DNA of 44,016 bases from an uncultured Gammaproteobacteria bacterium (lineage in GTDB: Bacteria; Pseudomonadota; Gammaproteobacteria; CAKMZV01). This document shows, piece by piece, positions 11,034-40,555 of the stretch (position 1 is the stretch's first letter; each line of letters opens with the position of its first letter). The position numbers were made by a program, and so were the translations under genes. Where the stretch lies: positions 1 through 44,016 of the forward strand of contig CAKMZV010000020.1 of assembly GCA_929200535.1 (NCBI GenBank), read 5' to 3'. The notes under the pieces are model-generated. The model was not told where the DNA came from. It made no database searches and was given only the letters and a program-made list of their open reading frames with translations.

Positions 11034-11042
11034 TGCTATAAT
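11034..11042 (+). promoter_or_regulatory. Extended -10 promoter element (TGnTATAAT)
   Basis: A consensus TATAAT (11037-11042) is preceded by TG at 11034-11035, the textbook extended -10. The only -35 resemblance is weak (GCGACA at 11012-11017, 19 bp spacing), which extended -10 promoters tolerate. Transcription would start near 11049. The ATG at 11041, which opens the longest reading frame, is then inside the promoter. Confidence 0.6.
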
Positions 11043-11103
11043 GACTTTACCATCTTTATCTTTTCGTAGAAACTCGTTAGAGACGCAAAAAATGATTTTA
11101 CAA

Positions 11104-14100: not shown

Positions 14101-16479
14101 AAAACAATGCAAGTCAGCATCGGTAGCATTACTGCGAGCTTTGCTGTTACTACCATTGGTAAAGATAGTACGATAGAACCAATTAATTTTGCTACTATTT
14201 CTGATGCCCCTACTGGGACTAGAATGGTTTCTAACCCTGCACGTATTAGAGGAATCAATACTAGCCTTGCCGTCAGTATCGCTGGTAATAGTAATAATGC
14301 AAAATACAGCATCAATAATGGCAATTTTGTTAATACCGCTGGCTCAATTAACAATGGTGATACTATTCAGCTTCGCTTGACATCCGCTGACTCTCTCAGT
14401 AGCACACGCACTGCCACCTTAACTATAGGCTCTCAATCATTTAACTTTTCGGTAATCACTCAAGCAAAAGATACTTCTGGGGATAGTTCGGATACTCGTG
14501 CTCCTGCCTTGCAAGTTCCAGAGGCATTAACAATTAAAGTGAGTATAGATTCTACTGGAGTATCAAATACCGATAATCGCATTGTTAGGTTTTTAAATTC
14601 AGCCTATGCGGTAGATGATAAAGATGGCGTGGTTATGGTAACAAATAACGCTCCAGAAATATTTCCTCTTGGCAAAACAATCGTGCGATTTAGTGCAGAA
14701 GATACGGCAGGCAATAAGAGTGAACGCTCTGTTTCTGTTGATATTCAACTACCACCTGATACTGAAGCACCTGTGTTTACCACAACCCTAAAAACAATCA
14801 ACCTTAAAGCCAGTGGAATATTTACCCCAATTAGTAAATTGAGATTATCAACGGTAACCGCAACAGATAATCGAGATGGCACCATTATTGCCAAACACAA
14901 TCTCTTCTATCCGCTCCTTTCAGGCAAGCATCGCATTGTTTGGACAGCAACTGATAAGGCAGGCAATAAAACCCAAGCCTCACAAGAAGTCAATATTTAC
15001 CCACAAGCGAATTTACTATTGGATCAATATGCAGGGAAGAAAACGCCTGTTTCGGTTCGTGCCTTCCTCACAGGACCAGCACCGGATTATCCCGTGGTTA
15101 TTCCGCTGAAAATAGATTATCACAGCAGTTTATTATCAGCCAATATTACCATTGGTAGTAGCAAAATAGGCAAACGCCAACGTGGGCTACTCGGTGAATA
15201 TCGATTTAAGATGACCAAACCCGATACAGGCAATTTTATTCAATTCACTATGCAAGATGATGGCTTATCTAATGCACACAAAGGTAAGAAAACCTCAATG
15301 AAAGTACATTACGTCGAGACTCAAGTATCACCTATTGGACAAATAATTATTACACAGGAGGGCTTCCAAACTTCCATTGTTGATATTGCCAGCAGCTTTA
15401 CCCTGAGTGCGGAAGTATTTGACCCAAATGCTGATGACACCCATACCTATCAATGGGAATACAAAAAAATAGGGCAAAGTGCACAAACAGCAGATACTCA
15501 AACCGTGCAAATTGATTTCTCTACTGAAAGTGGTAAAGACTTTATGTGGATTAAACTCAAAGTCACTGACAGCCAAGGCTTATCCTCAGAAAACTCAAGA
15601 ATGCTACGCCTAATTGATTCTCGAATAATGACCGCACTTTCAGCTTCCACAGACAGCGATGGCGATGGCATTAGCGATCAAAAGGAAGGCATTAAAGATA
15701 GCGATGGCGATGGCATTCTTGATTACGAAGATGATGATGAAAGAGCTCACTTTTTACCCACCTCAAAAACTATTATTGTTGCCGATGCTGAGGGCAGTAC
15801 CCAATATAGAACGGTGAGTATGCAAGCCAAAGAAGGGCAAAAAATTCGCTTAGGTGCAACCTCCATTAGCGCTGGGCGAAAAAATGCTAATATTGACCTT
15901 GCTCTACTCAAACAGTTCGGCAGTCAAGGAGAAGAGGCAAGCAAAGCTGAGGATATTGGTAACTATGAATTTAAAGGTGATGCGATTGATTTTGAAGTTA
16001 CTGGTTTATCGCAAGCTGGTGAATCTATTCAAGTGGTTGTTCCACTAAACAATCCTCTTGTTAAAGGTGCGGTTTATCGTAAATTCAGTGCTGATCAAGG
16101 TTGGAAAGATTTTATTATCAACGCCAAAAACAGCATTGAATCCGCACCAAGCGATCAAGGCATTTGCCCGGATATTGATGCGTCTAATAGCTGGAAGGCA
16201 GGGCTAACAGAGGGTTATGATTGTATTCGCCTCACCATTGAAGATGGTGGACCTAATGATGACGATGGACAAGTCAATGCCAAAGTTGCCGATCCTGGTG
16301 CAATATTTACTGAAAAATCCGCTGATGATGATAATTCTAATCAAGTGGGAGAAGACAGCAGCGGTGGTTGTGCCTTAATTAAAGATGCAAATCAGTCATT
16401 TTCACCGACCTTTATTTTATTATTAGCCATCTCTTCCTTGATGATTATTTATCGCAATCGTCGTAGGAAAAATCAATAA
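11104..16479 (+). CDS. Giant exported repeat protein with choice-of-anchor U domain and C-terminal sorting tail
   Basis: About 1790 residues. Order, by DNA position: signal peptide (hydrophobic core about 11140-11180); Ig-like strands to about 12200; two diverged tandem units of roughly 220 residues (12211-12870 and 12871-13540) sharing FWLS, TTYTAL, SWYDSRY or SWHDSRY, and SAFTKDSAVDL; three tandem beta units of about 105 residues (13540-14470); two HYR-like units (14500-15000, each with TDKAGNK or DTAGNK); an Asp-rich calcium-type motif DSDGDGISD and DSDGDGILD (15652-15730); a choice-of-anchor U region ending in TIEDGGPNDDDG; then SGGC, a membrane span and RNRRRK. The tail suggests sorting by a JDVT-CTERM-like or rhombosortase-like protease. 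The start is uncertain: ATGs lie at 11041, 11092 and 11104, and the promoter at 11034 argues against the first. Likely a surface adhesin, but no ligand is apparent. Confidence 0.85.
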   Translation: MKLKTQKQFVIWYKFAVAFIFIGLLFASNDGIADGVSKSSISTPTIKFITLPKKIVFGIENTLTVRVNPNDLSSSLSIFDADDFKPQRVGDKYFHLNLKSSDVSKGEYTYGFYPRKRNEATTTSLYIPAGVITNSKGYSNQRVEVTLPIDQRSNYEIYGKHIILANETATIRVEFSKKIKTISAADFIVSNARIENTKNDTYTYCEEVVNDQCVKFSYSFTVFRLTIFADGVGDVSVRLKDNNNIRTIDGYNIYPSSGYSSKTIKLISLNANAPTVQLLGLENGVEYNKETTAVLQFSTAVKITNSEINEVNGYAYIPRWSNGYYSTISLKVKGTGQQGKLKITIPAGNFQDKAGNYSAPLSVEIEIKNQPKVNYLTIYNRNDESNGEYISFWLSLPSTKSYSDIASVQLLTPNPQISYMMNLSGFHYGTWTSYNPANGNTYLYHNDIGIFQRISNAIDNTTYTALVTFKDNSTASTSRFLGEANPIPIPATPTITVTPNGYQFTWDEIQSDNRKFHYRISWYDSRYTGQAHHSGGSDFESTTSVFIPYSAFTKDSAVDLDYVKVRVQVRDGVGSGVNRSHSKTIPLNKNLKRNIKGLNAYHRKQADGKIYSNFWLSVSGKQSLSVISSIKLIPEGSPTSYNISLDNFEAGISTSYDSNNRAATLYNDADFFARFSSGTLASNTTYTALITFTNNTTTSVSSYLGTYQAFATPGTPTITKKQDGYQITWDRVECDNNELYYRVSWHDSRYPWDDYHVGASYRQSSTSLFIPISAFTKDSAVDLHHLKIRIEAYDKSDNYENRYSGKRIRLIPLDTLPDAFNYQTKVNVPLNSWVHASKAATIKGINSTVRVTITNGDFKVYHSKFFYWINSGWIGEGEEYIMTEGERIIVRHISTNTFGAYTTTTLTVGDYTTNFVSKTRIADSNPDSFSFASRSNVPINYYIESDTIRLRGFEGEVDISVQNGEYRLNGGTWQPNTGKATLGDILQIRIKSPIAFATKKTMQVSIGSITASFAVTTIGKDSTIEPINFATISDAPTGTRMVSNPARIRGINTSLAVSIAGNSNNAKYSINNGNFVNTAGSINNGDTIQLRLTSADSLSSTRTATLTIGSQSFNFSVITQAKDTSGDSSDTRAPALQVPEALTIKVSIDSTGVSNTDNRIVRFLNSAYAVDDKDGVVMVTNNAPEIFPLGKTIVRFSAEDTAGNKSERSVSVDIQLPPDTEAPVFTTTLKTINLKASGIFTPISKLRLSTVTATDNRDGTIIAKHNLFYPLLSGKHRIVWTATDKAGNKTQASQEVNIYPQANLLLDQYAGKKTPVSVRAFLTGPAPDYPVVIPLKIDYHSSLLSANITIGSSKIGKRQRGLLGEYRFKMTKPDTGNFIQFTMQDDGLSNAHKGKKTSMKVHYVETQVSPIGQIIITQEGFQTSIVDIASSFTLSAEVFDPNADDTHTYQWEYKKIGQSAQTADTQTVQIDFSTESGKDFMWIKLKVTDSQGLSSENSRMLRLIDSRIMTALSASTDSDGDGISDQKEGIKDSDGDGILDYEDDDERAHFLPTSKTIIVADAEGSTQYRTVSMQAKEGQKIRLGATSISAGRKNANIDLALLKQFGSQGEEASKAEDIGNYEFKGDAIDFEVTGLSQAGESIQVVVPLNNPLVKGAVYRKFSADQGWKDFIINAKNSIESAPSDQGICPDIDASNSWKAGLTEGYDCIRLTIEDGGPNDDDGQVNAKVADPGAIFTEKSADDDNSNQVGEDSSGGCALIKDANQSFSPTFILLLAISSLMIIYRNRRRKNQ

Positions 16480-16702: not shown

Positions 16703-18067
16703 ATGAAAATTAAAAAACTGTTAGAAATTACATTTAATATTGCCCAAAAATATATTGATTCTGATATTTCTAATCCTATCATTAACCCTCTTCCACCAGA
16801 ACTCAATAGAGAGCATTTTTCTCTGCAAATTGATAATGAGGGGATGAGTGAGCAGGAATTTTCACAAGCTCTTGAAAGGGTGGTGATGAATACGCCAAAG
16901 ACTGCCAGCAAAAAATTCTTTAATCAGCTTTTTGGTGGGAGAAATGCTCCAGCCCTTGCGGCTGAAATTCTGACAACGGTTACCAATAATTCTATGTACA
17001 CTTATAAAATTGGCGGTGTTCAAATAGCCATTGAAAAAGAAGTGATTGAAACAAAGCTGGATTATGTCGGATTTAAGGATGGCGATGGTGGATTTATGCC
17101 TGGTGGCTCTTTATCCAATATGGTGGCAATGATGATTGCTCGTAATGAAAAAGAAGAATCATTGTCTGCGAATGGCTTCTCAGGAAAAAAACTAATAGCT
17201 TATACCTCAGATCAAGCTCATTATTCGATTGAAAAAAATGGAGCCATTCTTGGAATTGGAGGCAATAACGTTCGCAAAGTTGTATCTGATGAAAAAGGCA
17301 AGATGAATGTTCTTGCTTTAGAGGAAGCGATAAAACAAGATTTAAAAGAGGGTAATATCCCCTTTTTTGTTAATGCAACTGCCGGGACAACTGTGCTCGG
17401 AGCATTTGATCCTTTTATAGAAATTACAAAAATTACACAAAAATATCATCTTTGGCTACATGTGGATGCAGCTTGGGGAGGTGGCGTTTTCTTATCAAAA
17501 AGATATAATTATTTAATTCAAGGAGTTGCAAATGCCCATTCAGTGACTTGGAATGCTCATAAAATGATGGGAGTGCCTTTATCTGCTTCTGCTATTTTAC
17601 TCAAACAAAAAGGACTTCTCTATAAACATTTTTCAATGAAGTCTGATTATCTATACCAAATAGGGGAAGATGAGTGGAACCCCGGACTTTCTTCATTGCA
17701 ATGTGGACGACGAAATGATGCATTTAAGGTTTGGGCTGCGTGGAAATATTATGGAAAATATGGTTATGAGGAACGCACTGAGAAACAGTTTGCCCTTGCT
17801 AAATACGCCACCCAAATCATTAAAAACTCTCCTGAATTTTCTTTGATATTAGAGCCTGAGGGATTAAATGTATGTTTTACCGTTGAGGGAGTTTCTGCTA
17901 TTGAGCTTTGCAATAACTTATATGAACAAGGGTTGCTTCAAGTTGGATATGGAAGTTGGCAGGAAAAGAGCTTTATTCGATTGATTTTAGTTAATCCTGA
18001 TATGGAATTTTCAGATATTGATGAGTTTTTTCACCTCATTCGCACTTATTTACATAAAAAATTATAA
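16703..18067 (+). CDS. csad: Cysteine sulfinate decarboxylase-like PLP enzyme (group II decarboxylase)
   Basis: Predicted to decarboxylate cysteine sulfinate to hypotaurine. The 454-residue protein is a full-length group II PLP decarboxylase. It shows the cofactor-stacking histidine in SDQAHYS (H183), ATAGTTVLGAFD, the PLP-nitrogen aspartate in HVDAAWGGG (D255) and the Schiff-base lysine in TWNAHKM (K287). The later segment LSSLQCGRRNDAFKVW is the part that most resembles animal CSAD/GADL1 and glutamate decarboxylase 1. Aspartate or glutamate as substrate cannot be excluded from sequence alone. The next gene, 8 bp on, encodes cysteine dioxygenase, whose product is exactly cysteine sulfinate, so the operon strongly favours the CSAD role. 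No clear Shine-Dalgarno precedes the ATG. Confidence 0.85.
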   Translation: MKIKKLLEITFNIAQKYIDSDISNPIINPLPPELNREHFSLQIDNEGMSEQEFSQALERVVMNTPKTASKKFFNQLFGGRNAPALAAEILTTVTNNSMYTYKIGGVQIAIEKEVIETKLDYVGFKDGDGGFMPGGSLSNMVAMMIARNEKEESLSANGFSGKKLIAYTSDQAHYSIEKNGAILGIGGNNVRKVVSDEKGKMNVLALEEAIKQDLKEGNIPFFVNATAGTTVLGAFDPFIEITKITQKYHLWLHVDAAWGGGVFLSKRYNYLIQGVANAHSVTWNAHKMMGVPLSASAILLKQKGLLYKHFSMKSDYLYQIGEDEWNPGLSSLQCGRRNDAFKVWAAWKYYGKYGYEERTEKQFALAKYATQIIKNSPEFSLILEPEGLNVCFTVEGVSAIELCNNLYEQGLLQVGYGSWQEKSFIRLILVNPDMEFSDIDEFFHLIRTYLHKKL

Positions 18068-18075
18068 AAAACAAA

Positions 18076-18555
18076 ATGAACTCACTACAAGAACTCATCA
18101 TCAAAATACAACAATTTATGAATAGCTCGCCACAGACTATTGAAGATTTTCAACCAATTATGGCTCAATATATAGGAGATGATTATAAGGATAGTTTAAC
18201 TTTTTCTCCGCAAAAATACACTCGAAAAATCATTGAAAAAAATGTTGATTTTGAGTTAGTCTTAATTGGTTGGGAAAAAGAACAAATATCTTTGCCTCAC
18301 TCACATTCTGAGCGTGGATGTGTTATGAAAGTATTGGCTGGAGAGATAACTGAAACTCGATATTATAAAGATGGCTCCGAAAAAGATTTTTTATGCAAAG
18401 AAAATTCTGTTTCATATATTCATAATGCTGATGCCTTTCATAAAATAGGTAACCAATCAAAATTTAAGCCAGCCGTCTCATTAAATTTATATTCCCCCGG
18501 TGAATACAATGCAAGATTTAGCACTTGCGCTAAAGACTTGTGGGAAGATTTTTAA
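18076..18555 (+). CDS. cdo: Cysteine dioxygenase (type I)
   Basis: A cupin non-heme iron enzyme that oxidises cysteine to cysteine sulfinate. The 159-residue protein carries the 3-His iron site, H75 and H77 in LPHSHSERGC and H122 in AFHKIGNQ. C82 and Y139 (in AVSLNLYSPGEY) are placed like Cys93 and Tyr157 of mammalian CDO, which form the thioether cofactor that raises activity. As I recall, many bacterial CDOs have Gly at the Cys position, so this one is of the cross-link-competent kind. A shortened C-terminus after the Tyr is the main difference from the animal enzyme (about 200 residues). It is the second gene of the hypotaurine cassette. The pathway direction is CDO, then CSAD, although the gene order is the reverse. 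Confidence 0.9.
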   Translation: MNSLQELIIKIQQFMNSSPQTIEDFQPIMAQYIGDDYKDSLTFSPQKYTRKIIEKNVDFELVLIGWEKEQISLPHSHSERGCVMKVLAGEITETRYYKDGSEKDFLCKENSVSYIHNADAFHKIGNQSKFKPAVSLNLYSPGEYNARFSTCAKDLWEDF

Positions 18556-21032: not shown

Positions 21033-21218
21033 ATGGACAAAGACACCGCAAAACATTTAGCCCAAACATTGAGAATCATTGGGGTTTCTCAATTTGCAAA
21101 CTATGGATAGCAAGCTTTATCTACAGGAAATGTTACAATTATTATATTATCTGCAATCATCTTTATTAGATTTGAAATAATCGGAGCGATAATAATAAGT
21201 AAAGGAGAAAAATCATGA
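21033..21218 (+). pseudogene. Small membrane protein gene interrupted by in-frame TAG
   Basis: From the ATG at 21033 a frame runs 25 codons (MDKDTAKHLAQTLRIIGVSQ then FANYG) to TAG at 21108-21110. It continues open for 35 more codons as QALSTGNVTIIILSAIIFIR and beyond, a clear membrane span, to a TGA at 21216-21218. That TGA overlaps the next gene's ATG in the classic ATGA arrangement. The start is 1 bp after the gspN stop. Both edges fit a co-translated operon gene, so the TAG looks like a recent nonsense mutation, a read-through codon or a sequencing error. No usable start codon follows the TAG before the membrane segment. The function is unknown. Confidence 0.6.
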
Positions 21219-21358
21219 CGTTAATAGAATGGATGCCAATGATTCTATCACTCGGTGCAGGTATGGGGATTTGGTTTTTTGTCAAAATATTGGAAAGCAA
21301 GGGTAAAAAAAATCGTCTAAGTAGGAAAGCAAATCAATCATCTACTTCGACGGATTAA
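21215..21358 (+). CDS. Small single-span membrane protein, unknown function
   Basis: A 47-residue protein, MTLIEWMPMILSLGAGMGIW followed by FFVKILESKGKKNR and a Ser/Thr-rich tail. It has one hydrophobic span (about 7-25) and a basic stretch after it, giving a cytoplasmic C-terminus by the positive-inside rule. A strong Shine-Dalgarno (AAAGGAG at 21201-21207) lies at good spacing before the ATG, which is the best support that it is translated. It overlaps the stop of the interrupted gene by 4 bp. I do not recognise the family. Its position between gspN and the ExbB-like gene leaves open whether it belongs to either system. Confidence 0.6.
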   Translation: MTLIEWMPMILSLGAGMGIWFFVKILESKGKKNRLSRKANQSSTSTD

Positions 21359-21502: not shown

Positions 21503-22534
21503 TTGTCAAACAACATATCAGTGCCACCATCTAACGATAGTTTATCTACTATTGTTCTTATTCTCAATGCTTTTTTACCTTTAATCTGTTTTTATTTTTA
21601 TACTAATCAAAGCCCACTTAATTCACTGACATCTATTGGATGGATATTAGTTGCTCTATTGAGTTTGCCTAATCTTATTGCTCTCAAAAAAAACGACTGG
21701 ATTAAGGTAAGCTATTGGACAACACTGACTGCTCTCCTTGTTGCTATTATCGGAACATCTTTTAACTTGTGGCAGGTACTGTTACAAGGCAATAAGATTG
21801 AATTAGCCAATCACCTACTTGCCCTGCTTTTTGGATTACTATTATCAAGTGCTCTACAAATGCACCTGATTCGCTTTAGTAAATCTGATACGGAACTTTC
21901 TATCACGGAAAGAGTCAGTAAAATTTTTCAAGGTCCTTCCTTGATTATCAGCTTAGTCATTGCGATGATTATTGTGAATGTTACTCTTATTTTTCTCAAT
22001 AATTTTGACAATGAAATTATCAAAATTATAGGTGCAAAATTTTTAACTCGAGGCATTATTCCTCCACTCACATTACTTTTATTTTTTTGGGGATTGGTTT
22101 TACTATTGGGGAAATTAATTACCATCTACTTGGATATCGCGAGAAACAAAGCAAAGAATTTACATCAAATTTACTACTCAAGTACAACTGCAAACGCAAA
22201 AACAAAACTATTAGAATTGTGCTGGCAACAATTAGACGGATTTTACGCCGTTCCTAAATATATTAATTGGGCTATTCCTATTTTAGGATTTATTGGTACG
22301 GTACTCGGCATTTCATTAGCGACAGAGGGCTTATCAGATTTATTAGCAACTTCTGAATCAAACTATAGCCAGTTATTATCAGAAGCATTATCTCCTCTTG
22401 GCATTGCTTTTGACACCACCCTGATTGCCTTAACTCTCTCTATTTTTCTCACTTTATTACAAACGCTTATCTATCGCTGGGAAGAAAAATTACTCTCACA
22501 ATTTGAACAGAATCCGACAATGAGTGAGCTTTAG
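21503..22534 (+). CDS. MotA/TolQ/ExbB-like proton channel protein
   Basis: A 343-residue polytopic protein with about eight predicted spans. The last three (about 190-215, 253-273 and 298-322) match the MotA/TolQ/ExbB core. They include PILGFIGTVLGISLATEGL and LGIAFDTTLIALTLSI, where the Thr residues line the proton path in ExbB/TolQ. The extra N-terminal spans distinguish it from ordinary TolQ or ExbB. It starts with TTG at 21503, backed by AAAGGAG about 8 bp upstream. It is the first gene of a four-gene unit with two ExbD-like proteins and an FGE-like protein, so I infer the channel half of a proton-motive-force-driven envelope complex. It is not the TolQ of a Tol-Pal operon, because tolA, tolB and pal are absent. 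Confidence 0.8.
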   Translation: MSNNISVPPSNDSLSTIVLILNAFLPLICFYFYTNQSPLNSLTSIGWILVALLSLPNLIALKKNDWIKVSYWTTLTALLVAIIGTSFNLWQVLLQGNKIELANHLLALLFGLLLSSALQMHLIRFSKSDTELSITERVSKIFQGPSLIISLVIAMIIVNVTLIFLNNFDNEIIKIIGAKFLTRGIIPPLTLLLFFWGLVLLLGKLITIYLDIARNKAKNLHQIYYSSTTANAKTKLLELCWQQLDGFYAVPKYINWAIPILGFIGTVLGISLATEGLSDLLATSESNYSQLLSEALSPLGIAFDTTLIALTLSIFLTLLQTLIYRWEEKLLSQFEQNPTMSEL

Positions 22535-22561
22535 TTCAACTGTCTTATCTCCTCTCATTTG

Positions 22562-23095
22562 ATGTCCAAATTTTCTAAAAAATTTCGCAAAAACAACCAC
22601 AATGATAATGCCATTGATGCACCAATGGTTGAGATCTTTGGAGGTACTTTAGCCCTCCTAATTATCCTCTATGCACTTATCAACGTAGTCATTTCAGAGG
22701 ATATTCAAGCTATGTTAGAGCGTTCGACAGAAAATGCTGAATTTAAAGTGAGTTGGACTGATGGTGGTGAAGGACTAATCATTTTATCCTATCCCGATAA
22801 ACTTCGTATTTTAGAGACAAATGAAACCGTTTTTCCCCAACAAATATGTCAGGATAGTGGCACATTTCTCAATTACGTTAATAAACTTTACAACAATCAA
22901 AAACAACAAATCATCTTTGCTATTTTAGAAGGCGGAGTAAAAACTATGGCTAAAGCACGTGACTGTATGCTACATAAAAACCCAAATAAAAAAATTAGCA
23001 TCGGGTGGATAATTGCCAATAGTGACTTGCTTAATACCGTTAAATTGGAAGATTTACCAGTAAGAGTTAAGCGTGCACTCACAAAAAGTAGGTAA
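22562..23095 (+). CDS. ExbD/TolR-like single-span protein (first)
   Basis: A 177-residue protein with ExbD-like topology: a basic cytoplasmic N-terminus (KKFRKNN), then DAPMVEIFGGTLALLIILYA, a span opened by Asp and Glu, and a periplasmic domain of about 130 residues. The Asp at the start of the span corresponds in position to the essential Asp of ExbD/TolR (for example Asp25 of E. coli ExbD). The periplasmic part (strand-rich, QQIIFAILEGGVKTMAKARD) resembles the small alpha/beta fold of TolR, but I cannot prove this. The TTG at 22559 is in frame; the ATG at 22562 is preferred. It lies 27 bp after the ExbB-like gene. The family call rests on topology and context. Confidence 0.65.
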   Translation: MSKFSKKFRKNNHNDNAIDAPMVEIFGGTLALLIILYALINVVISEDIQAMLERSTENAEFKVSWTDGGEGLIILSYPDKLRILETNETVFPQQICQDSGTFLNYVNKLYNNQKQQIIFAILEGGVKTMAKARDCMLHKNPNKKISIGWIIANSDLLNTVKLEDLPVRVKRALTKSR

Positions 23096-23112
23096 GTATC
23101 TAATTATTACCG

Positions 23113-24939
23113 ATGCGCAAACAAAAAAATATAACACTCTGGGGACAAGGCGGAGTTGCACTCGCAGATATTCTTGCCAATAGTGTTGCGGTTATTCTAA
23201 TACTAATTGTTGTTACTCTTTCAGTACAACAAGAAAAAGCCGATCTTGAATTAGAAAAAAATGCCGATGTTACCACTTTGTTAGCACGTCAAATTGCCAC
23301 TACGGTAGTTTATAACGATCTTCCCTCAAGTCCCCCTGCATTACTACACGATTATCATAGTTGTGCCATCCCTCACGATTGCAATCCAGCTCTTTATCCC
23401 ATTATTGAATTACGACAGGATTATATTCGTGAGTATAATACTGGGCTTAAGTTTTATCGCAAAGAACTTCTTAAACCTGAAAATCCTTTTGATAATCTTA
23501 TAAAGACCTTTACCCCCCAAGAACGTGCTGGTATTCGTATTGATGTTTATGACGTCAATCTCTATTACCTCGCCATTGGCATTCTTAAAGAGCATAAAAT
23601 TTCCCCAAGACATTGGCACTATCTCGGTGAAGATGTTAAATCCAAAATCTCCCCAGCACAAGCTCTTGCTGATGGAAAACATGGTACTGCTGATACTGAA
23701 CAAGAAAGCCTTGCACATGGTGGAAAACTTGATTCTCAAAGTCAAGGAGGTGGTGAAAAAGAGTCTCAAAATAATAGTTCAACCTTAGAGAGTACTCAAA
23801 TGGCAGATTTAGAAAGTTTGGAGCAAATTCAGCATAACGACCTTCTACCTCCTACCGATGAAAGTGGCAATTCAAATGGAGATGGTAACAGTGATAAGGG
23901 CTCCCCTGATGGTTCTGATGGGCAACAAGATCAACAGGGACAGCAAGGAAATAATAAGCAACAAGGAGATAGCGAGCAACAAGGACAATCTCAAGTTCAA
24001 CCTGAAACAATGTTTGAATCATTGATTGATCTTTTAGAGAACGAAGGTGTCCTATCGCAACAACAAGGTCAAGGCAAAAGCCAGCAACAAGGACAGAGTC
24101 AAAGACAAAAGGGCAGGCGATCAATGCGTATGCATGTCCCTAATGCAAGCTCTTTTGCACCACAACAGCAGCAAGACCCTCCACAAAAACTTTTATTAGA
24201 TAAAGAAGATTACAATCGAGTACTCCTTGCCTTTTTTCTCGATCAACTACAATTAGCAAGAACGCAAAAAACCACTTTTATTGAAGGACTCAATGAAATC
24301 CTTAGCCGCTATGCTCAAGATCCTGATATTCTAAAAAACCACCCAGATATTGCACTCATTGATGAATTAGATAGACAACTCAATCAATACTTCATAGAAA
24401 AGCCCCAAAACCCAGCCCCACTCAAAAAAATAATTGGAAAACACCCAAACCAACTCAATCTTATTGCTAACCAAGTCAATGCCACCAGCACATTGTTAAT
24501 CAATCAAGAAAATGATGAGTGGAGCAAAAATTTTTCTGATAAAAATAACGGAATCAATCTTATTCTACGTTCTTTCCCTGGACTATATAAAGGAGAAAGA
24601 TTAGATCTCCCCCCAGGGCATTTATTGTTAGTTCATCCCAACGAGGCACGCTACCCAGAAATGCAATGGCGCCCGATTATTATTGTCGATACTTGGTTAG
24701 AAGATGCCTCAGTCGGCTTTATCAAAGCTGCCTTTACGGACAATACTTTATACCTTGATTCCCAAATACTCGGCACTCGTATCAATAACATTCTGATTCC
24801 CGAACCAAAATTAACAGAAAATCTTGAAAGCAAACGCATTGCCACCACCTTATACGCCGGCATTGGATTAATTCTATTTTTGTTATTTGCCGCAGGGCTA
24901 ACTATCAGCCTATCTCTACGTAAAAAAGCAATCTCTTGA
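23113..24939 (+). CDS. Large ExbD-like protein with Gln-rich linker and C-terminal membrane span
   Basis: 608 residues. The N-terminal part, GQGGVALADILANSVAVILI, is again an Asp-led single span of ExbD/TolR/MotB type. A coiled periplasmic stretch follows, then a very polar low-complexity linker rich in Gln, Gly and Ser (about 190-360), a folded region (about 360-580) and a second span at the very end (about 580-602) with a short basic tail (SLRKKAIS). Both ends are therefore anchored in the membrane and the bulk lies in the periplasm. Two cysteines near residues 77 and 83 (YHSCAIPHDC) could form a disulfide. The C-terminal region is unknown to me. Its place between the first ExbD-like gene and the FGE-like gene suggests it transmits motion within the same complex. 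Confidence 0.65.
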   Translation: MRKQKNITLWGQGGVALADILANSVAVILILIVVTLSVQQEKADLELEKNADVTTLLARQIATTVVYNDLPSSPPALLHDYHSCAIPHDCNPALYPIIELRQDYIREYNTGLKFYRKELLKPENPFDNLIKTFTPQERAGIRIDVYDVNLYYLAIGILKEHKISPRHWHYLGEDVKSKISPAQALADGKHGTADTEQESLAHGGKLDSQSQGGGEKESQNNSSTLESTQMADLESLEQIQHNDLLPPTDESGNSNGDGNSDKGSPDGSDGQQDQQGQQGNNKQQGDSEQQGQSQVQPETMFESLIDLLENEGVLSQQQGQGKSQQQGQSQRQKGRRSMRMHVPNASSFAPQQQQDPPQKLLLDKEDYNRVLLAFFLDQLQLARTQKTTFIEGLNEILSRYAQDPDILKNHPDIALIDELDRQLNQYFIEKPQNPAPLKKIIGKHPNQLNLIANQVNATSTLLINQENDEWSKNFSDKNNGINLILRSFPGLYKGERLDLPPGHLLLVHPNEARYPEMQWRPIIIVDTWLEDASVGFIKAAFTDNTLYLDSQILGTRINNILIPEPKLTENLESKRIATTLYAGIGLILFLLFAAGLTISLSLRKKAIS

Positions 24940-24966
24940 TATATACCTCATATATATACTATATCT

Positions 24967-26547
24967 ATGAATAAAATTGCCAATAAAACCACCCTACTGC
25001 TTATTGTCTTTTGCTTTATTATTATTGGGCTAATGTCTTGGCGATGGTTTTTTTCGGTCAATATCAAAATTGATACCATTGAAATTGATATCCAACAATC
25101 AGAAACCTTGGATTCCTTGGATAGGGTTTTACAACAAAGCCTAAGCCACTTACAGAACAAACCTCAACTCATTGAATTTTTTACTCGCCCTTCATCACTC
25201 ACTCAGATAACTAATCTTTGGATGGATGAATGCGAAGTAACACAAAAAGATTTTGGTAAATTCCGCCAATGGTACGCCACAAGAGAAAACCCACCTCAAA
25301 TAGCTCATCCAGCACAACCTCCACAATGGACCTACCATAGCAAAACCGTCGGGCACAAACTCTTAGGACGCCTTAATATGCCAGCCAGCGGAATTAGCTA
25401 TTACGAAGCGTATAGTTATTGCCAAGCAGCAGGCGGCAGACTGCCTTATAGTAACGAATTTGAAGCTATATCCAATAGTAAAAAAGGCAATCTCTATCCT
25501 TGGGGAAATAATGCCGATAAAAAAATTATCCGTAAAGCGATGCCTTTTCGAGACCCCACCTTAAATGTACAAGCCTGCGGAAGAGCCGAGCTACAAACCC
25601 CCAAAACACAAATTCACGATCTCGGAAACAACCTCTTAGAATGGGCAACCTTAGCAAATGGAAAAGGTGTTTTAATGGGTGGAAATGCTTATCACCGCCC
25701 CGTCAAAATTAATGCTTTAAATCTAATTCAACGCCCTGCCCCCTATGACTATCGCTCTCAATATTCAGGATTTCGGTGTGTTTACTCAAGACCTGCAAAT
25801 ATAAAAAATACCACCCGTGAAATGCCTTGGAAGTCAATCAGTAATCTTAAATCGATTGAAGCTGGTTACTATCCAATCGGCACTCCGCCCTCTTCTATTA
25901 TTGTGAAATTATTCAAATACTTAGAGCCTGAACAATACAAAACACTCACCTCTCTCCCTATTAAGCAAAACCCATTAAAATTACGAATTAGCAAAACAGA
26001 GATCAATGTTCAACAATATCAACGCTTTCTTCAAGACCCATTGGTAAAACTTAATTTTTTTAACCATCCCAAGCATCCCAAAAAAATTACCCACGTACCA
26101 ATCAACTGGAAAAAACAACTTGAAAACCCAGCAAGACCTGTTACCAGCATTAACTGGTGGAACGCTTGGGCATTTAGCAAATGGTCAGGTGGTCGCCTAC
26201 CAACAGATAAAGAATGGAAGAAAATTGCAGGTGCAAGATCAACGCTTCATCCATGGGGAAATGAATATATTATCGGGCGTAGTATCGATAGAAATCATCC
26301 AGGAAGCAAACATCAACCAAGAGGGGCGCAACTATCCGATGATGAATCCTTACATGGCGTATTGGGGCTTGCTGGCAATGTTGCCGAATGGACTTCCTCC
26401 ATTACCCACTATGGCAATGGATTTCACGTTATTATCAAAGGCGGCAGTTATGCCCTACCAAGACAAGCCACCCAAGTGCTACAAACTGCAGCAGCCTCAC
26501 CCAATTACCATAATCCAGATTTAGGATTTAGGGTTGTTTTTCCATAA
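24967..26547 (+). CDS. Membrane-anchored protein with two FGE/SUMF1-like domains, catalytic Cys absent
   Basis: 526 residues: one N-terminal span (about 9-30), a short helical stalk, then two formylglycine-generating-enzyme-like domains (about 75-275 and 290-526). Domain signatures occur twice: EVTQKDFGKF with YYEAYSYCQAAGGRLPYSNEF, and EINVQQYQRF with WWNAWAFSKWSGGRLPTDKEW, then LYPWGNN or LHPWGNEY and GFR near each end. The catalytic cysteine pair of true FGEs, which lies in the stretch between KGGSY and GFR, is missing in both domains, so formylglycine formation is unlikely. A structural role like that of the FGE-fold protein GldK in the type IX/gliding motor is a better model. It is the last gene of the ExbB/ExbD-like unit. 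Confidence 0.82.
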   Translation: MNKIANKTTLLLIVFCFIIIGLMSWRWFFSVNIKIDTIEIDIQQSETLDSLDRVLQQSLSHLQNKPQLIEFFTRPSSLTQITNLWMDECEVTQKDFGKFRQWYATRENPPQIAHPAQPPQWTYHSKTVGHKLLGRLNMPASGISYYEAYSYCQAAGGRLPYSNEFEAISNSKKGNLYPWGNNADKKIIRKAMPFRDPTLNVQACGRAELQTPKTQIHDLGNNLLEWATLANGKGVLMGGNAYHRPVKINALNLIQRPAPYDYRSQYSGFRCVYSRPANIKNTTREMPWKSISNLKSIEAGYYPIGTPPSSIIVKLFKYLEPEQYKTLTSLPIKQNPLKLRISKTEINVQQYQRFLQDPLVKLNFFNHPKHPKKITHVPINWKKQLENPARPVTSINWWNAWAFSKWSGGRLPTDKEWKKIAGARSTLHPWGNEYIIGRSIDRNHPGSKHQPRGAQLSDDESLHGVLGLAGNVAEWTSSITHYGNGFHVIIKGGSYALPRQATQVLQTAAASPNYHNPDLGFRVVFP

Positions 26548-28143: not shown

Positions 28144-29133
28144 CTATGCTAAATTTAAAATATCATAGCCCATATGTTTCGCCCAATGGATAAGATCGAT
28201 AAATACCCAGTTTTCGGCAAGTTTATCATCTTGACGACGATAAATATCTATCACTCTAAATTCTCCCCGATTTTTTGTGGGAGGGATACCTATAAACTCT
28301 TGGCGTAGTCTGGCAGTAAAGTTAGGCCAGCCAAAAAATCCACCATAATTCCCCTCTGATAGACGACAAATATGTTGAGTGCTTGAACGTTCACAAAATG
28401 CTGCCCGAAAAGGGGCTGAATGTTGCTTAGCATATCGCTCAATTGTGTAGGTTGAGCCAATTCCAGTAGGACCCCACCAGATCATATTATTATGCCAGCT
28501 TTGTCTTAATTCATCTTCAAGCGTTAAATTACTATCCCACTGCCCTAAATCTTTAATCATTGAGTTAATAATGTCCAAGGTTTTTTCGCCCTGTTCAGGA
28601 GCTTGAGGTGTATAGTACAAACCATCGTGCGTTTGTGGTCCTGGTTGGATAATATTTGCACCTCGTTGACTATGATGTGGGAAAGGATTTAACCCAGCTT
28701 GAACCATTAAATGAGGAATATCGAAAAAAAAGGCTGTTTCAACAATCTTGTCCCCAACCACCTTATTAAATTCACAATAACGAAAAAAAGTCATTTTTTG
28801 GGTAGGTGGTATGCCCCATAGTGGTTGGTCAAATAAACCGACCAAATGCCCCATAGAAACCACCCAAGTTGATTGAAAATTATCTATTTGATTGGTTCCA
28901 GCAAAGAAAATATCTTGCCGTCTTTGGACTGAACTCATCGCATATAAAAAAGGTTGCCAAAAAGCCTCGGCAACTTCTTTAGCACCTACTCTTTCATCAC
29001 AAGGGCTAAACCCATACCAACGCCAGTCAGCAGCAGTTCTAACTTGCAAGACATCGCCAATATTATCTGCATTAGCATCCTCAAGCTCATCATAATACTT
29101 GAGTACTAATTGTTTTTGTTTATCAAAATTCAT
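28144..29133 (-). CDS. Double SnoaL/NTF2-like protein (first), divergent member of catabolic cluster
   Basis: 329 residues made of two SnoaL/NTF2-type domains (about 1-160 and 185-329). Typical features are aromatic-rich strands (DWRWYGFSP, TWVVSMGHLVG, WWGPTGIGSTYT) and a closing NWVFIDLIHWAKHMGYD. SnoaL-fold proteins include polyketide cyclases, dehydratases and isomerases. The exact reaction cannot be read here, since catalytic Asp/His positions vary. It is a clear paralogue of the product of 35111-36130 (shared W(W/Y)GPTGIG, IPPT, NWVLID/NWVFID). It is divergent from the ABC importer operon and shares the 137-bp control region with it, so both are probably under the LacI regulator encoded further on. 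Confidence 0.8.
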   Translation of the reverse strand: MNFDKQKQLVLKYYDELEDANADNIGDVLQVRTAADWRWYGFSPCDERVGAKEVAEAFWQPFLYAMSSVQRRQDIFFAGTNQIDNFQSTWVVSMGHLVGLFDQPLWGIPPTQKMTFFRYCEFNKVVGDKIVETAFFFDIPHLMVQAGLNPFPHHSQRGANIIQPGPQTHDGLYYTPQAPEQGEKTLDIINSMIKDLGQWDSNLTLEDELRQSWHNNMIWWGPTGIGSTYTIERYAKQHSAPFRAAFCERSSTQHICRLSEGNYGGFFGWPNFTARLRQEFIGIPPTKNRGEFRVIDIYRRQDDKLAENWVFIDLIHWAKHMGYDILNLA

Positions 29134-29153
29134 TTTCTCTTACGTAAACTTCT

Positions 29154-29174
29154 TTTTTTATCAACGATAAAAAA
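29154..29174. promoter_or_regulatory. AT-rich perfect palindrome in divergent control region
   Basis: TTTTTTATC (29154-29162) and GATAAAAAA (29166-29174) are perfect 9-bp arms around AAC. It lies about 20 bp upstream of the divergent double-SnoaL gene, in its leader or promoter. A regulator site is possible; a terminator is less likely in this position. Confidence 0.4.
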
Positions 29175-29178
29175 TTCT

Positions 29179-29194
29179 CTGCATACGAATGCAG
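29179..29194. promoter_or_regulatory. Candidate LacI-family operator
   Basis: CTGCATACGAATGCAG is a 16-bp near-perfect palindrome with central CG, the usual form of LacI/PurR/GalR operators. It lies 9 bp upstream of a TATAAT (29204-29209), over the expected -35 region of the ABC operon, where binding would block RNA polymerase. A LacI-family gene is in the same cluster (36885-37889). Confidence 0.6.
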
Positions 29195-29203
29195 TTTATG
29201 TAT

Positions 29204-29209
29204 TATAAT
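29204..29209 (+). promoter_or_regulatory. -10 element of the ABC importer operon
   Basis: TATAAT sits 61 bp before the ATG of the ATPase gene, downstream of the candidate operator. The -35 position is occupied by the operator and has no good match to TTGACA, as expected for a regulated promoter. Confidence 0.5.
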
Positions 29210-29233
29210 CTAATTCTATGCTATCACAATCAA

Positions 29234-29250
29234 TTATAGGTAGCCTATAA
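29234..29250. promoter_or_regulatory. Second palindrome in the ABC operon leader
   Basis: TTATAGG (29234-29240) and CCTATAA (29244-29250) are perfect arms around TAG. It lies just after the predicted transcription start and could be an auxiliary operator or an mRNA hairpin ahead of the ribosome-binding site. Confidence 0.4.
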
Positions 29251-29270
29251 ATTAAGAAGAGATTAGACTA

Positions 29271-30323
29271 ATGGCAGAAATCCAATTTAATAATATCTAT
29301 AAAACATGGGGCAATTTTACTGGAGTTAATAACTTCAACCTCACTATTGCAGATAAGGAAATGCTTGTTTTATTAGGTCCCTCCGGTTGTGGTAAAACGA
29401 CTACAATGCGTATGGTTGCAGGACTTGAAGAGCCAAGCTCGGGTGAAATTTTGGTTGATGGTAAAGTCATTAGTGGGCTTGAACCAAAAGATCGTGATGT
29501 CGCTATGGTCTTTCAATCTTATGGGCTCTATCCTAATATGAATGTTTATGAAAACATTCGCTTTCCTTTAAAAGTCCGAAAAGTTGATTCAAACACTCAT
29601 GATGAACGAGTCAGACGTGCCTCTGATATGGTTGAATTAGGTCCCTTTTTGGATCGCAAACCAGCGCAATTATCTGGTGGGCAACGTCAGCGAGTCGCAT
29701 TAGCAAGAGCCATTGTACGCAAACCAAAAGTCTTTTTAATGGATGAGCCATTATCAAATTTGGATGCTAAACTACGTGTATCCACTCGTGCACAAATTAA
29801 AAATCTATGCCACGAACTCCAAGCAACAACCATTTATGTCACTCACGATCAAATAGAGGCGATGACTTTGGCTGATCGTGTCGTTGTGATGGAGCATGGT
29901 ATTATTCAACAGGTCGGCACCCCAACAGAAATTTATGATAATCCAGCTAATACTTTTGTTGCTGGATTTATTGGTAATCCATCAATGAATCTTATTCCAG
30001 GTTCGGTGCAAAACGGAACATTTAAAGCAGAAAATATTGAGGTTTCAGGATTGAAAGTAGCTGATGGAGAACTCACCTTAGGCTTTCGAGCTGAAGATGC
30101 CGCCCTATCAGATACTTCTAAAGGTGAGATTGATGCACCTATTTATACATTGGAGTTATTAGGAGACGCGACGATGATTACTGTTCGTGCAGGTGGTCAG
30201 TTGGTTTCAGTCAAAGTTGATAAAGGATTTCGGTCAGAAATTGGTGCGCCTGTTTCACTCAAAGTACCGAGTAGCATTTGCCATTTTTTCAAACCAGAAA
30301 AAGATGGTGGCTACAAGATTTGA
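29271..30323 (+). CDS. ugpC: ABC importer ATPase, MalK/UgpC family
   Basis: The cytoplasmic ATPase of a CUT1-type importer. 350 residues with Walker A GPSGCGKT (36-43), the Q-loop region VFQSYGLYPNM, the signature LSGGQRQRV (from 134), Walker B VFLMDEP (154-160), the H-loop VTHD and a C-terminal TOBE-type regulatory domain (about 240-350). The family typically imports sugars, sugar alcohols or glycerol-3-phosphate, although members for sulfonates and other small polar solutes are known. The name ugpC indicates family only. It is first in an operon with its binding protein and two permeases, so the importer is complete. An AAGAAGAG sequence serves as a fair ribosome-binding site. Confidence 0.9.
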   Translation: MAEIQFNNIYKTWGNFTGVNNFNLTIADKEMLVLLGPSGCGKTTTMRMVAGLEEPSSGEILVDGKVISGLEPKDRDVAMVFQSYGLYPNMNVYENIRFPLKVRKVDSNTHDERVRRASDMVELGPFLDRKPAQLSGGQRQRVALARAIVRKPKVFLMDEPLSNLDAKLRVSTRAQIKNLCHELQATTIYVTHDQIEAMTLADRVVVMEHGIIQQVGTPTEIYDNPANTFVAGFIGNPSMNLIPGSVQNGTFKAENIEVSGLKVADGELTLGFRAEDAALSDTSKGEIDAPIYTLELLGDATMITVRAGGQLVSVKVDKGFRSEIGAPVSLKVPSSICHFFKPEKDGGYKI

Positions 30324-30395
30324 GAGTTGCTCTCGAAAAAAAGGTTAGTAGGTATAACGGCTAACCATTCATAATTTTAACTATTTGGAGATGAT

Positions 30396-31652
30396 ATGAA
30401 ATTAAAATATTCAATCGTAGCAAGTGTACTTTATGCATTTACTACACTATTTATTACTCAAAGTATTGCTCACGCTGGCCATCATAAATGTAAAATCAAT
30501 GCTTCTGTTAGTATTGTTGGTAACGAGTTCCCAGCAATTCAATCAGTCGCAGCTGGAGCAAAAAAATGTACTGGAGCTGAAGTTAAATCAAATTTAACGG
30601 CAGACCATCAAAAGATTAACTTGCCAGGTATGCAAGCTAATCCAGCCTCATACAGTTCGGCAATTATTGCTAACTCGTCAATTGTTCCTTTGATGAATGA
30701 AAATCTTATTCGTCCTCTTGATGATTTGGTTGCCAAACATGGTGGAAAGCTAAAGAAAAATCAGTTAATTACCATTGATGGAAAAATTATGGCAATTGCT
30801 TTTATGGCAAATGCTCAACATCTTGTCTATAGAGCTGATATCTTGAAAAAAGTTGGCGCAAAACCTCCAAAAACTTACGAAGAAATGCTATCAATAGCTA
30901 AAAAAATTCGTGCCAAAGGAATTATGCAAAACCCTATTTCGGGTGCCTATAAATCTGGTTGGAACTTAGCACAAGAATTTAACAATATGTTTTTAGGTTA
31001 TGGTGGCAAACACTTTAAAGCAAATTCAGCAGAGCCTAATGTTAATTCTAAAGCCGGTGTTAAAGCATTGAAAATGATGAAAAAACTTTCTGCCTATATG
31101 AATCCTGATTTCCTCACACACGATTCTAACGCTGCCAATGCTGAATACAGAGCTGGTAATGTTGCCCTAATGAATATGTGGGGAAGCCGTGCTGCCACTT
31201 TAATCACTGTTGAAGGGGTTGCTAAAGAAGTGGTTGATGGATTTGCCATTGATGGTCCAATGACTGTCGGTGGTGGCTCTATTCCTGCATCAACTTTATG
31301 GTGGGACGGCTGGACCGTTGCTAAAAACGTTTCTAATGCGCAAGCTGAAGCCACTTTTGTTGCGATGATGAACGGTATTTCTCCATCGATGATGAAAGAT
31401 GAAGAAATTCGCACACAAGCTGTTTGGTTAATTGATGGCTATAAGCCAACCCCAGCAGCAAAAGGTGTTTTTGCCGCAGCTCAAGCAGGTACTATTCCTT
31501 ATCCAATGATTCCTTATATGGGTCTTTTACATACGGCATTGGGTAAAGAATTATCAGACTATATGCAAGGCAAAGAAAGTGCCGAACAAGCACTTAAAGA
31601 TATTGAAGCCACCTATATCGCTGCTGCAAAAGAAAAAGGCTATATCAAATAA
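30396..31652 (+). CDS. Extracellular solute-binding protein (family 1)
   Basis: The periplasmic binding component that captures the imported compound. 418 residues; a signal peptide (about 1-27, cleavage after SIAHA) without a lipobox, then a bilobal family 1 fold. Visible elements are the hinge-region PLMNENLIRPLDDLVAKHG, the [15 protein letters not shown] helix and the GNVALMNMWGSRAATL strand that often follows the ligand pocket. A good Shine-Dalgarno (TTGGAG) precedes the ATG. It is followed by two hairpins (31704-31757), which may protect its mRNA and allow higher expression than the permeases. The ligand cannot be told from sequence. Trp and Arg residues near the cleft (GWNLAQEF, LWWDGW) suggest a small polar or anionic ligand, which is inference only. 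Confidence 0.88.
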   Translation: MKLKYSIVASVLYAFTTLFITQSIAHAGHHKCKINASVSIVGNEFPAIQSVAAGAKKCTGAEVKSNLTADHQKINLPGMQANPASYSSAIIANSSIVPLMNENLIRPLDDLVAKHGGKLKKNQLITIDGKIMAIAFMANAQHLVYRADILKKVGAKPPKTYEEMLSIAKKIRAKGIMQNPISGAYKSGWNLAQEFNNMFLGYGGKHFKANSAEPNVNSKAGVKALKMMKKLSAYMNPDFLTHDSNAANAEYRAGNVALMNMWGSRAATLITVEGVAKEVVDGFAIDGPMTVGGGSIPASTLWWDGWTVAKNVSNAQAEATFVAMMNGISPSMMKDEEIRTQAVWLIDGYKPTPAAKGVFAAAQAGTIPYPMIPYMGLLHTALGKELSDYMQGKESAEQALKDIEATYIAAAKEKGYIK

Positions 31653-31701
31653 GACATAGCTCTTTTATGCAAAAACGCATTGCAATAGGAACTACTTACA
31701 A

Positions 31702-31757
31702 ACTACTCCCTCTCGCACAGGGAGTTAGTTTGCTCGCTCCCACGCTACTGCGTGGGA
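31702..31757. repeat. Two hairpins between binding-protein and permease genes, second a REP-like repeat
   Basis: ACTCCCT (31705-31711) pairs with AGGGAGT (31719-31725). CCCACGC (31739-31745) pairs with GCGTGGG (31750-31756) around TACT and is followed by an A-rich run. The second hairpin is a copy of the repeat at 42635-42656. Such hairpins after binding-protein genes often stabilise the upstream mRNA or partly terminate. Confidence 0.6.
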
Positions 31758-31843
31758 ACAAGCAAAAAAAAGGGGGCGTGGATTTAAATCATAAAATGAT
31801 GATTAATCCCCTCTCCCTTTCATTAAATTTAGGATAGCAAAGA

Positions 31844-32869
31844 ATGAAACATCGTTCTTTTTTTTGGTTCTTTCTACCAACTGCTTTGGCAATGCTACTC
31901 TTTATTGCCTTTCCAATCGTCTCGGTAGTAACACAATCATTATTCACACCACATGAGGCGGTTTTTACGACAGTTGAAAAATGTGATCCCTTTGGTTGTA
32001 CCAAGGAAAGTGTGGTTGATCAAGAAGCTAGCCAAGCATTGAAAAAATCTAACCCATTGGGACGTTTTGCAGGATTAGATATTTATTTTGACCGTGGACA
32101 CTTAGCAACTAAAGAAGTTGCAGAGGCTTGGCAAACACGTAAAAGTATGGGGGATTTCTTCTCTACTCTAAATAATTTACCTTTTTACAGAGCGATGGGA
32201 TTTACCCTAACTTATACCTTCCTCGTAACCCCACTATTGATTATTCTTGGATTAATGATTGCCCTATCGGTCAATTCCTTGCATAGACACCTCAAAGGAT
32301 TGGCTATTTTCTTTTCCCTACTTCCTTTGATAGTCACCCCTCTTGTTGGCTCATTAATTCTTTTTTGGATGGTCGATAGTCGTGGCATTTTGGGAACATT
32401 TTTACAATGGTTGGCAGGTGATCCAGATTTATCGCTAAAGGCCTCTACCACCCTCACCTGGATTATGTTAATTGTCTATGGGGTGTGGCATGCGGCTCCT
32501 TTTGCCTTTGTCGTATTTTATGCTGGTTTACAAACCTTACCTAAAGATCAATTAGAATCTGCCCAAATTGATGGCGCCAATCGTTGGCAACGATTGCGTT
32601 ATGTGATTGTCCCACACTTAATGCCCTTAGTCACCTTTGTGGCACTCATTCAACTAATGGATAATTTCAGAGTCTTTGAGCCGATTGTCGGCTTTAACTC
32701 CGAAGCTCACGCAACATCGTTGAGTTGGATTATTTTTAATGATTTAAATGGCGAAACTCTGCAGTTATCTGCCGCTTCTACAACCTCTGTGATAACTATT
32801 ATTGGAGTTGCCATACTGTTATCACCTGTTCTTGTTCAAACTTGGAAAAACTTTAAAGATAAAAAATAA
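31844..32869 (+). CDS. ABC importer permease (MalF/UgpA type)
   Basis: The first membrane subunit of the importer. 341 residues with about six spans. An unusual soluble insert of about 90 residues lies between the first span and the rest (about 35-115, VEKCDPFGCTKESVVDQEAS, where two Cys may pair). The EAA loop that contacts the ATPase is clear as QLESAQIDGANRWQRLRYVIVPHLMP (start near residue 240). The insert faces the periplasm by topology, reminiscent of the MalF P2 loop but shorter. The stop overlaps the next permease start by one base (TAATG), indicating translational coupling. Confidence 0.88.
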   Translation: MKHRSFFWFFLPTALAMLLFIAFPIVSVVTQSLFTPHEAVFTTVEKCDPFGCTKESVVDQEASQALKKSNPLGRFAGLDIYFDRGHLATKEVAEAWQTRKSMGDFFSTLNNLPFYRAMGFTLTYTFLVTPLLIILGLMIALSVNSLHRHLKGLAIFFSLLPLIVTPLVGSLILFWMVDSRGILGTFLQWLAGDPDLSLKASTTLTWIMLIVYGVWHAAPFAFVVFYAGLQTLPKDQLESAQIDGANRWQRLRYVIVPHLMPLVTFVALIQLMDNFRVFEPIVGFNSEAHATSLSWIIFNDLNGETLQLSAASTTSVITIIGVAILLSPVLVQTWKNFKDKK

Positions 32870-33750
32870 TGACGAACAAAACACAAAAACTCTTTACTTT
32901 TAACAGCTTATTCAGCAATTCCTTTGTGATTGTTTGGTTAATTATTGCTGCTTTTCCATTTATTTGGACATTTTGGGGATCATTTAAAGTTGAGTTAGAT
33001 TTTTTCTCTATCGCCGATTGGACCAATGCCATCACAGGCAAACTCACTCAAGAAACTTATGGCTCGGCTTTCACTGGAACAGGATATGAAGGTGCTTGGA
33101 TACAAGAAAAGTTTTGGCTATCAACAATCAATACTTGGGTTGTCTGCTTTTTTGTTGTGAGCATTTCCCTCACTATCGGCACCCTTGGTGGATATGCCCT
33201 ATCTCGTTCAGGCTACCGCTATACTTTTTGGTTACTTATTATTGCACTAATTTTTAGGGCAATGCCTCCTATTACCTTAGTCGCCGGTTATATGTTACCT
33301 TTTTTTGAATGGAACCTTTGGGGTAAACTACCCACCACCATTGTTGTGCTTGTGGCAATCAATCAACCTTTTACCTTATGGATGCTCCATTCTTTTTTCC
33401 AAACCATTCCTAAAGAATTAGATGAAAGTGCTAAGGTTGATGGTTGTACCCAATTTCAGGCTTTTCGTCGGGTCATTATTCCCGTAATGTGGCCAGGTGT
33501 TATTACGACTGGGCTATTTAGCTTTTTATTAGCCTATAACGATTTTGCAGTAACGTCTATGTTACTCTCTGATGAAAACCGCACTATGGTGCCTAAGATA
33601 GCTGCCTTTCTCGGAACCACTTATACCGAGGGTAATATTATGTTTGCCGTTGCTGCCGTGGTCTCATCAACGGTACCACTATTTATTTTAGTAATGTTTT
33701 TTCAACGACAAATCGTCAGCGGTTTAACCGCCGGTGCTGTCAAAGGTTAA
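32869..33750 (+). CDS. ABC importer permease (MalG/UgpE type)
   Basis: The second membrane subunit. 293 residues with six predicted spans and the EAA loop ELDESAKVDGCTQFQAFRRV (from about residue 183) followed by IIPVMWPG. The family pattern of a first span, a periplasmic loop containing WIQEKFWLSTINT, and then the transport core agrees with MalG-type permeases. It pairs with the preceding permease to form the translocation pathway. The spacing to the dehydrogenase gene is 41 bp, so transport and catabolism genes are probably on one transcript. Confidence 0.9.
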   Translation: MTNKTQKLFTFNSLFSNSFVIVWLIIAAFPFIWTFWGSFKVELDFFSIADWTNAITGKLTQETYGSAFTGTGYEGAWIQEKFWLSTINTWVVCFFVVSISLTIGTLGGYALSRSGYRYTFWLLIIALIFRAMPPITLVAGYMLPFFEWNLWGKLPTTIVVLVAINQPFTLWMLHSFFQTIPKELDESAKVDGCTQFQAFRRVIIPVMWPGVITTGLFSFLLAYNDFAVTSMLLSDENRTMVPKIAAFLGTTYTEGNIMFAVAAVVSSTVPLFILVMFFQRQIVSGLTAGAVKG

Positions 33751-33791
33751 ACTTCGATTATCTCTATCAAATTCAATAACACAATAATAAA

Positions 33792-35102: not shown

Positions 35103-35110
35103 AGATAGCC

Positions 35111-37889: not shown

Positions 37890-37890
37890 A

Positions 37891-38865: not shown

Positions 38866-38868
38866 ACA

Positions 38869-39825: not shown

Positions 39826-39837
39826 ATAGTGAACGCA

Positions 39838-40530: not shown

Positions 40531-40555
40531 TCAACAACTCACTAATTAAATAATT

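Follow-up and report, generated by a model that had tools for sequence, protein, structure and literature searches.

The gliding/type IX core of Bacteroidetes combines a proton-driven motor (GldL/GldM) with an FGE-fold protein (GldK). In ExbBD, residues Asp25, Thr148, and Thr181 are essential, and in the current model the two Asp residues of TolR exchange protonation states (PMC12905483). The gliding motor AglRQS of Myxococcus contains one channel and two axle proteins, whose pairing as a heterodimer has been left open (PMC9389320, PMC3169522), while TolQ-like motors with heterologous TPH-vWA pairs have been proposed to rotate in the pore (PMC12204202, 2025). Here, we analyzed a 44,016-nt stretch of DNA (referred to below as the window) that harbors, at positions 21503-26547, four genes designated A to D. 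Our literature search on ExbB/ExbD with FGE and on motor families returned no paper describing an A-B-C-D unit, which thus apparently represents an undescribed proton-driven envelope motor.

A conserved four-gene cassette

All four reading frames are open and lie on the same strand. Gene A (21503..22534, + strand) starts with a TTG preceded by AAGGAG and encodes a MotA/TolQ/ExbB-type channel subunit of 343 aa. It is followed by B (22562..23095, + strand), coding for a single-span, ExbD-fold axle candidate of 177 aa if counted from the ATG at 22562, which is probably the start codon and comes directly after a TTG at 22559. Gene C (23113..24939, + strand) encodes 608 aa with an Asp-led N-terminal span, a Gln-rich linker, and a second, C-terminal span, and D (24967..26547, + strand) encodes 526 aa predicted to form an N-terminal membrane anchor and two periplasmic FGE-fold domains. 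HMM searches showed that the genes are collinear and on the same strand in 53/53 loci holding all four, with a median spacing between neighboring genes of -4 bp, an overlap indicative of probable translational coupling. Since the order is kept on one strand in all of these loci, it is far beyond chance, and A-B-C-D is a real conserved cassette, in line with the four-gene, same-direction, short-gap unit originally predicted. At incomplete loci, the missing genes were explained by a contig end, with the exception of L040 (OY282460.1, about 9599-10717), where gene A stands alone with no B, C, or D adjoining and could be an orphan or an assembly join. A promoter and terminator scan gave no more sites than were obtained with shuffled sequences.

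We searched 369 sampled gammaproteobacterial genomes, including that of the window, with D and identified five genomes with full-length relatives (E below 1e-25). Independent profile searches of the same 369 genomes recovered the same five with B and four of them with C; in the fifth, C probably falls in a gap between contigs, since B and D are found there at contig edges. A first scan of genome contigs with a single A (ExbB) sequence gave no match, while a scan of GTDB contigs with an alignment of A (three relatives) yielded 57 loci, two of which look like genomes already present in the D search (L077/G096 and L032/G216). These loci are mostly from marine MAGs, several of them named as sponge symbionts, and further hosts are Vibrio thalassae, Aliivibrio finisterrensis, and Thioalkalivibrio sp. 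HK1. The A proteins form 28 clusters at 70% identity and hence do not represent one repeated clone. In a phylum-wide sample of 399 genomes, B was detected in the window's own genome only, showing that the unit is rare and patchy. A plasmid search with C gave no match. Rare co-occurrence of the four families, or pairing with Tol or Ton in relatives, had been named as what would refute the proposed unit, and the outcome of this check was in its favor.

Gene neighbors of the unit vary between loci, and because it occurs in many different neighborhoods, the unit is self-contained and independent of any neighboring operon. In the window, gspL, gspM, and a gspN-like gene lie upstream of A, ending 472 bp before the unit, and a Fic-domain gene lies downstream of D on the opposite strand. 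Genes gspI-N were found about 4 kb from the unit in G096, and no gspL/M/N/I/J/K match was seen at loci other than these two. The suggested link to gspLMN was thus not borne out, T2SS genes being nearby in only two lineages, the window and this one relative. The most frequent recurring neighbors were a Ser/Thr kinase and a TonB-dependent receptor (15 loci each), followed by a peptidase (12) and a TPR protein (9). They were rejected as cassette partners, since they are limited to one clade of close relatives and their recurrence reflects shared descent.

Only A and TolQ represent the MotA_ExbB proteins in the host genome. TolQ is encoded within a complete tolQRAB-pal locus on a different contig, and a PF02472 search of the same genome returned TolR as the sole match. 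Next to the unit, TolA, TolB, and Pal were absent from the window and from the loci read. The absence of Tol-Pal noted earlier therefore applies to the window but not to the genome, which holds a complete system elsewhere. The proposed separation of the unit from Tol, Ton, and flagella was supported.

Other features were noted around the unit. Between gspN and A, a possible 47-aa membrane peptide (MTLIEWMPMILSLGAGMGIWFFVKILESKGKK...; 21214-21357) is preceded by AAGGAG. A PLP-dependent decarboxylase beside a cysteine dioxygenase (16703-18555) looks like a hypotaurine/taurine-forming pair, while an ABC transporter, two SnoaL-like proteins, and a histidinol dehydrogenase (28144-41909) have the look of a catabolic operon. 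A protein of 1812 aa (11041-16479), with a weak HYR domain match alone, is probably a large surface or secreted protein. Inspection by eye of L084 (959-5049; G000:C1) revealed an apparent GspE/PilB-like ATPase and a GspF/PilC-like gene beside the host tol-pal genes and apart from gspLMN, so that the secretion or pilus genes of the host look split.

Channel, axle candidates, and FGE-fold protein

A matched PF01618 (MotA_ExbB) with an E value of 4.8e-5 and 23.5 bits, against a cut-off of 22.9. It contains at least 7 hydrophobic segments, with several extra N-terminal spans ahead of the three-helix ExbB core, and its pore motifs are FIGTVLGIS and LGIAFDTTLIAL. The three pore Thr residues tested are invariant (59/59). 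With a domain score over the curated cut-off and conserved pore Thr, A belongs to the MotA/TolQ/ExbB family, and its description as a polytopic channel of this type was correct. A scored 54-75 bits against the channels of FHA/PP2C/kinase/vWA clusters but only 2.8 bits against the host TolQ.

B and C matched no Pfam or NCBIfam family, and searches of 52 B and 53 C members detected neither PF02472 (ExbD/TolR) nor a vWA domain. The residue of B at the position of the TolR/ExbD Asp is Glu in 28 homologs and Ala in 29, but never Asp, within an otherwise strict IFGG motif; the window protein carries Glu (APMVEIFGG). In contrast, the Asp of the C motif ALADILAN (residue 19 in the window) is invariant (56/56), and judging from these sequences the two axle candidates are therefore unequal. 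The prediction of two Asp-led proteins thus held for C but not for B, which is Glu-led in the window and has Ala in half of its homologs. In a maximum-likelihood tree of A, a single branch with 100% bootstrap support separates the Glu from the Ala states of B, indicating that the switch happened once, and the Asp of C is unchanged throughout this split. Since all Ala-clade B proteins harbor an acid seven residues earlier (29/29), the acid may have been shifted toward the cytoplasmic end rather than lost. Profile alignment placed the Asp of C and the Glu of B opposite the TolR Asp, although weakly (P 0.03 and 0.007), the comparisons of B with C and of either with TolR being not significant and used for the register alone.

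The AF2 model of B had a mean pLDDT of 73, with about 85-95 in the periplasmic core. Three of its four best Foldseek matches in the PDB were ExbD or TolR (ExbD 8vgd, prob 0.96; TolR 5by4, 0.66; ExbD 8p9r, 0.69; E 0.05-0.4), and we tentatively assign to B an ExbD-like periplasmic fold. For C, hydropathy indicated spans at about 20-38 and 584-602. The N-terminal half of its AF2 model displays an Asp-led helix and, at about 97-170, strands and helices arranged in a sequence resembling that of ExbD, the Gln-rich linker (about 176-332) is disordered over about 150 residues, and the C-terminal half contains a helical part and a beta domain at about 437-565. The full C model gave no usable fold match when compared to the PDB with Foldseek.

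D matched PF03781 (FGE-sulfatase) over two stretches with an E value of 3.8e-42, confirming the double FGE fold of this membrane-anchored protein. The D profile matched solved FGE at 2.5e-19 and PorK/GldK at 4e-8, the latter over part of domain 2 only. Against the GldK equivalog model, D scored 16.1 bits (cut-off, 350), and a lipobox-like motif was present in 5/54 D sequences. At the FGE active-site stretch, Cys was found in 0/54 sequences for domain 1 and 1/54 for domain 2. D thus has the family fold but not its active-site Cys pair and, since this catalytic pair is missing, would be a non-catalytic FGE-fold module. Domain 1 has four conserved cysteines (Cys 89, 152, 204, and 271, each present in 50-54 of 54 sequences) that probably form structural disulfides; two of them lie in the YC and GFRC motifs common to human FGE, whose cysteines we take to be its structural disulfide.

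A putative proton motor and competing readings

We favor, with moderate confidence, the view that A-B-C-D encodes a stand-alone proton motor of the 5:2 type, in which B and C most likely pair as a heterodimeric axle and which also carries D. A would form a pentameric channel ring in the inner membrane around an axle made of the N-terminal helices of B and C. C would supply the essential proton-binding Asp, the acid of B being dispensable, and proton flow at the A/C interface would make the axle turn or cycle. The periplasmic parts of B and C, together with the tethered, non-catalytic D, would then relay this movement to a partner in the cell envelope. What we infer is the complex with its stoichiometry, the pairing of B with C, and rotation; the partner, presumably encoded elsewhere and perhaps peptidoglycan or an outer membrane protein, and the biological role of the motor are guesses.

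The invariance of the pore Thr of A and of the Asp of C counts for the motor, because such residues are essential in ExbBD, and so do the co-occurrence and collinearity of the genes, their many neighborhoods, and the ExbD/TolR fold matches of B. On the other side stand the weak sequence match of B and C to ExbD, the lack of a PDB match for C, and the solitary gene A at L040, as well as the second span of C and the acid located seven residues earlier in the Ala clade. As far as sequence comparison can tell, the check on co-occurrence and pairing also favored the proton-driven unit with an FGE-fold module that had been proposed. A bolder version, which we rate as unlikely, is that the axle is an obligate B:C heterodimer, which in the Ala clade holds a single proton-binding carboxylate. 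If true, this motor would run on one carboxylate, contrary to models in which two axle Asp residues alternate, and the Glu and Ala clades would constitute a natural before-and-after experiment.

The next best reading after the B:C axle, possible but doubtful, is that C forms a homodimer serving as the true axle, each copy contributing one Asp as do ExbD and TolR, with B as an ExbD-fold subunit of peripheral or regulatory function bound at the edge or to the periplasmic part. That C alone keeps the Asp while B tolerates Ala would fit such an arrangement, as would the binding of TonB/TolA-type subunits to the motor edge (PMC12204202). However, the Glu/Ala position of B is embedded in a strict motif and its fold is tentatively ExbD-like, and heterologous pairs are usual among TPH-vWA partners (PMC12204202) and exist in AglRQS. 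The remaining readings are less likely. The gsp genes found close by in the window and G096 could point to a proton-driven accessory of type II secretion, but their absence from all other loci makes this very improbable. We give no more credence to D being an active FGE-like oxidase to which the motor is incidental since, despite clear homology to FGE, the catalytic Cys pair is absent. A ZorAB-like anti-phage or stress sensor, in which an envelope sensor would open a proton channel or signal inward, is improbable as well. The patchy spread of the unit over lineages, a weak PADLOC match of A to ZorA1 (E 0.015), and a match of the B profile to the span of the 246-aa membrane protein 8qyd (E 1.2), presumably ZorB, are compatible with this function, but the unit is not accompanied by a cytoplasmic effector gene, PADLOC matches for B, C, and D are absent, and the neighborhoods examined are not defense islands. 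No ZorA/ZorB match accompanied by ZorC/D or ZorE was found.

As a proton-driven motor, the unit would be a self-contained addition to a small class of envelope machines and would connect a non-catalytic FGE fold with such a motor outside Bacteroidetes. Hosted by two named vibrios (V. thalassae and A. finisterrensis) and by many marine, often sponge-associated gammaproteobacteria, it offers a test case for whether ExbD-like proteins that come in pairs combine into a heterodimeric axle, a question open for AglQ/AglS (PMC9389320), and for whether two protonatable residues on the axle are a requirement of 5:2 motors.

Comparison with known systems

Like TolQR and ExbBD, the unit combines a channel with a MotA_ExbB domain and pore Thr with a tentative ExbD/TolR-like periplasmic fold in B, but A has extra N-terminal spans, the axle proteins are two and unequal, and TolA/TonB is missing. 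The second span of C, which returns the distal end of the protein to the inner membrane, distinguishes it from TolA, TonB, and GldM. The combination of a proton motor with an FGE-fold protein recalls GldL/GldM/GldK (PorL/M/K), and the analogy originally drawn with this system is loosely supported in this respect. However, most D proteins are anchored by a span and lack a lipobox, D is closer to true FGE than to PorK/GldK, and no match to GldL, GldM, or GldN was seen; neither the GldL/GldM motor nor the GldK lipoprotein equivalog of the type IX/gliding core was thus found.

Clusters with FHA, PP2C, kinase, FGE, and vWA genes were seen at L009-L012. The one at L012 (7464-17048; G017:C2) encodes a Ser/Thr kinase, a PEGA-FGE protein, an ExbB-like channel, an FHA protein, and two TM-coiled-coil-vWA proteins and may be a distant cousin motor with kinase signaling. 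In many relatives (G035:C59, G017:C12, G025:C1, G014:C5, and others), two low-scoring ExbD proteins of about 170-190 aa are encoded in tandem, and these pairs could be another two-axle motor group.

AglRQS resembles the unit in having one channel and two different ExbD/TolR-like partners, but a PF02472 match and the Asp are found in AglQ as well as in AglS, while B and C do not match PF02472 and only C has the Asp; moreover, no Glt genes accompany the unit. TPH-vWA motors likewise have one TolQ-like channel and two different span-led periplasmic partners with an acid in the span, as C and the Glu-led B proteins have, clusters of this type hold the nearest channel relatives of A among those compared, and at L012 an FGE protein and a kinase are present beside the two vWA axle proteins. 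They differ in that B and C have no vWA domain and no detectable similarity to vWA axles, that D carries two FGE domains but neither PEGA nor FHA, and that C has a second span. The best reading is that the A-B-C-D unit is related to the TolQ-like/TPH-vWA motors and to AglRQS.
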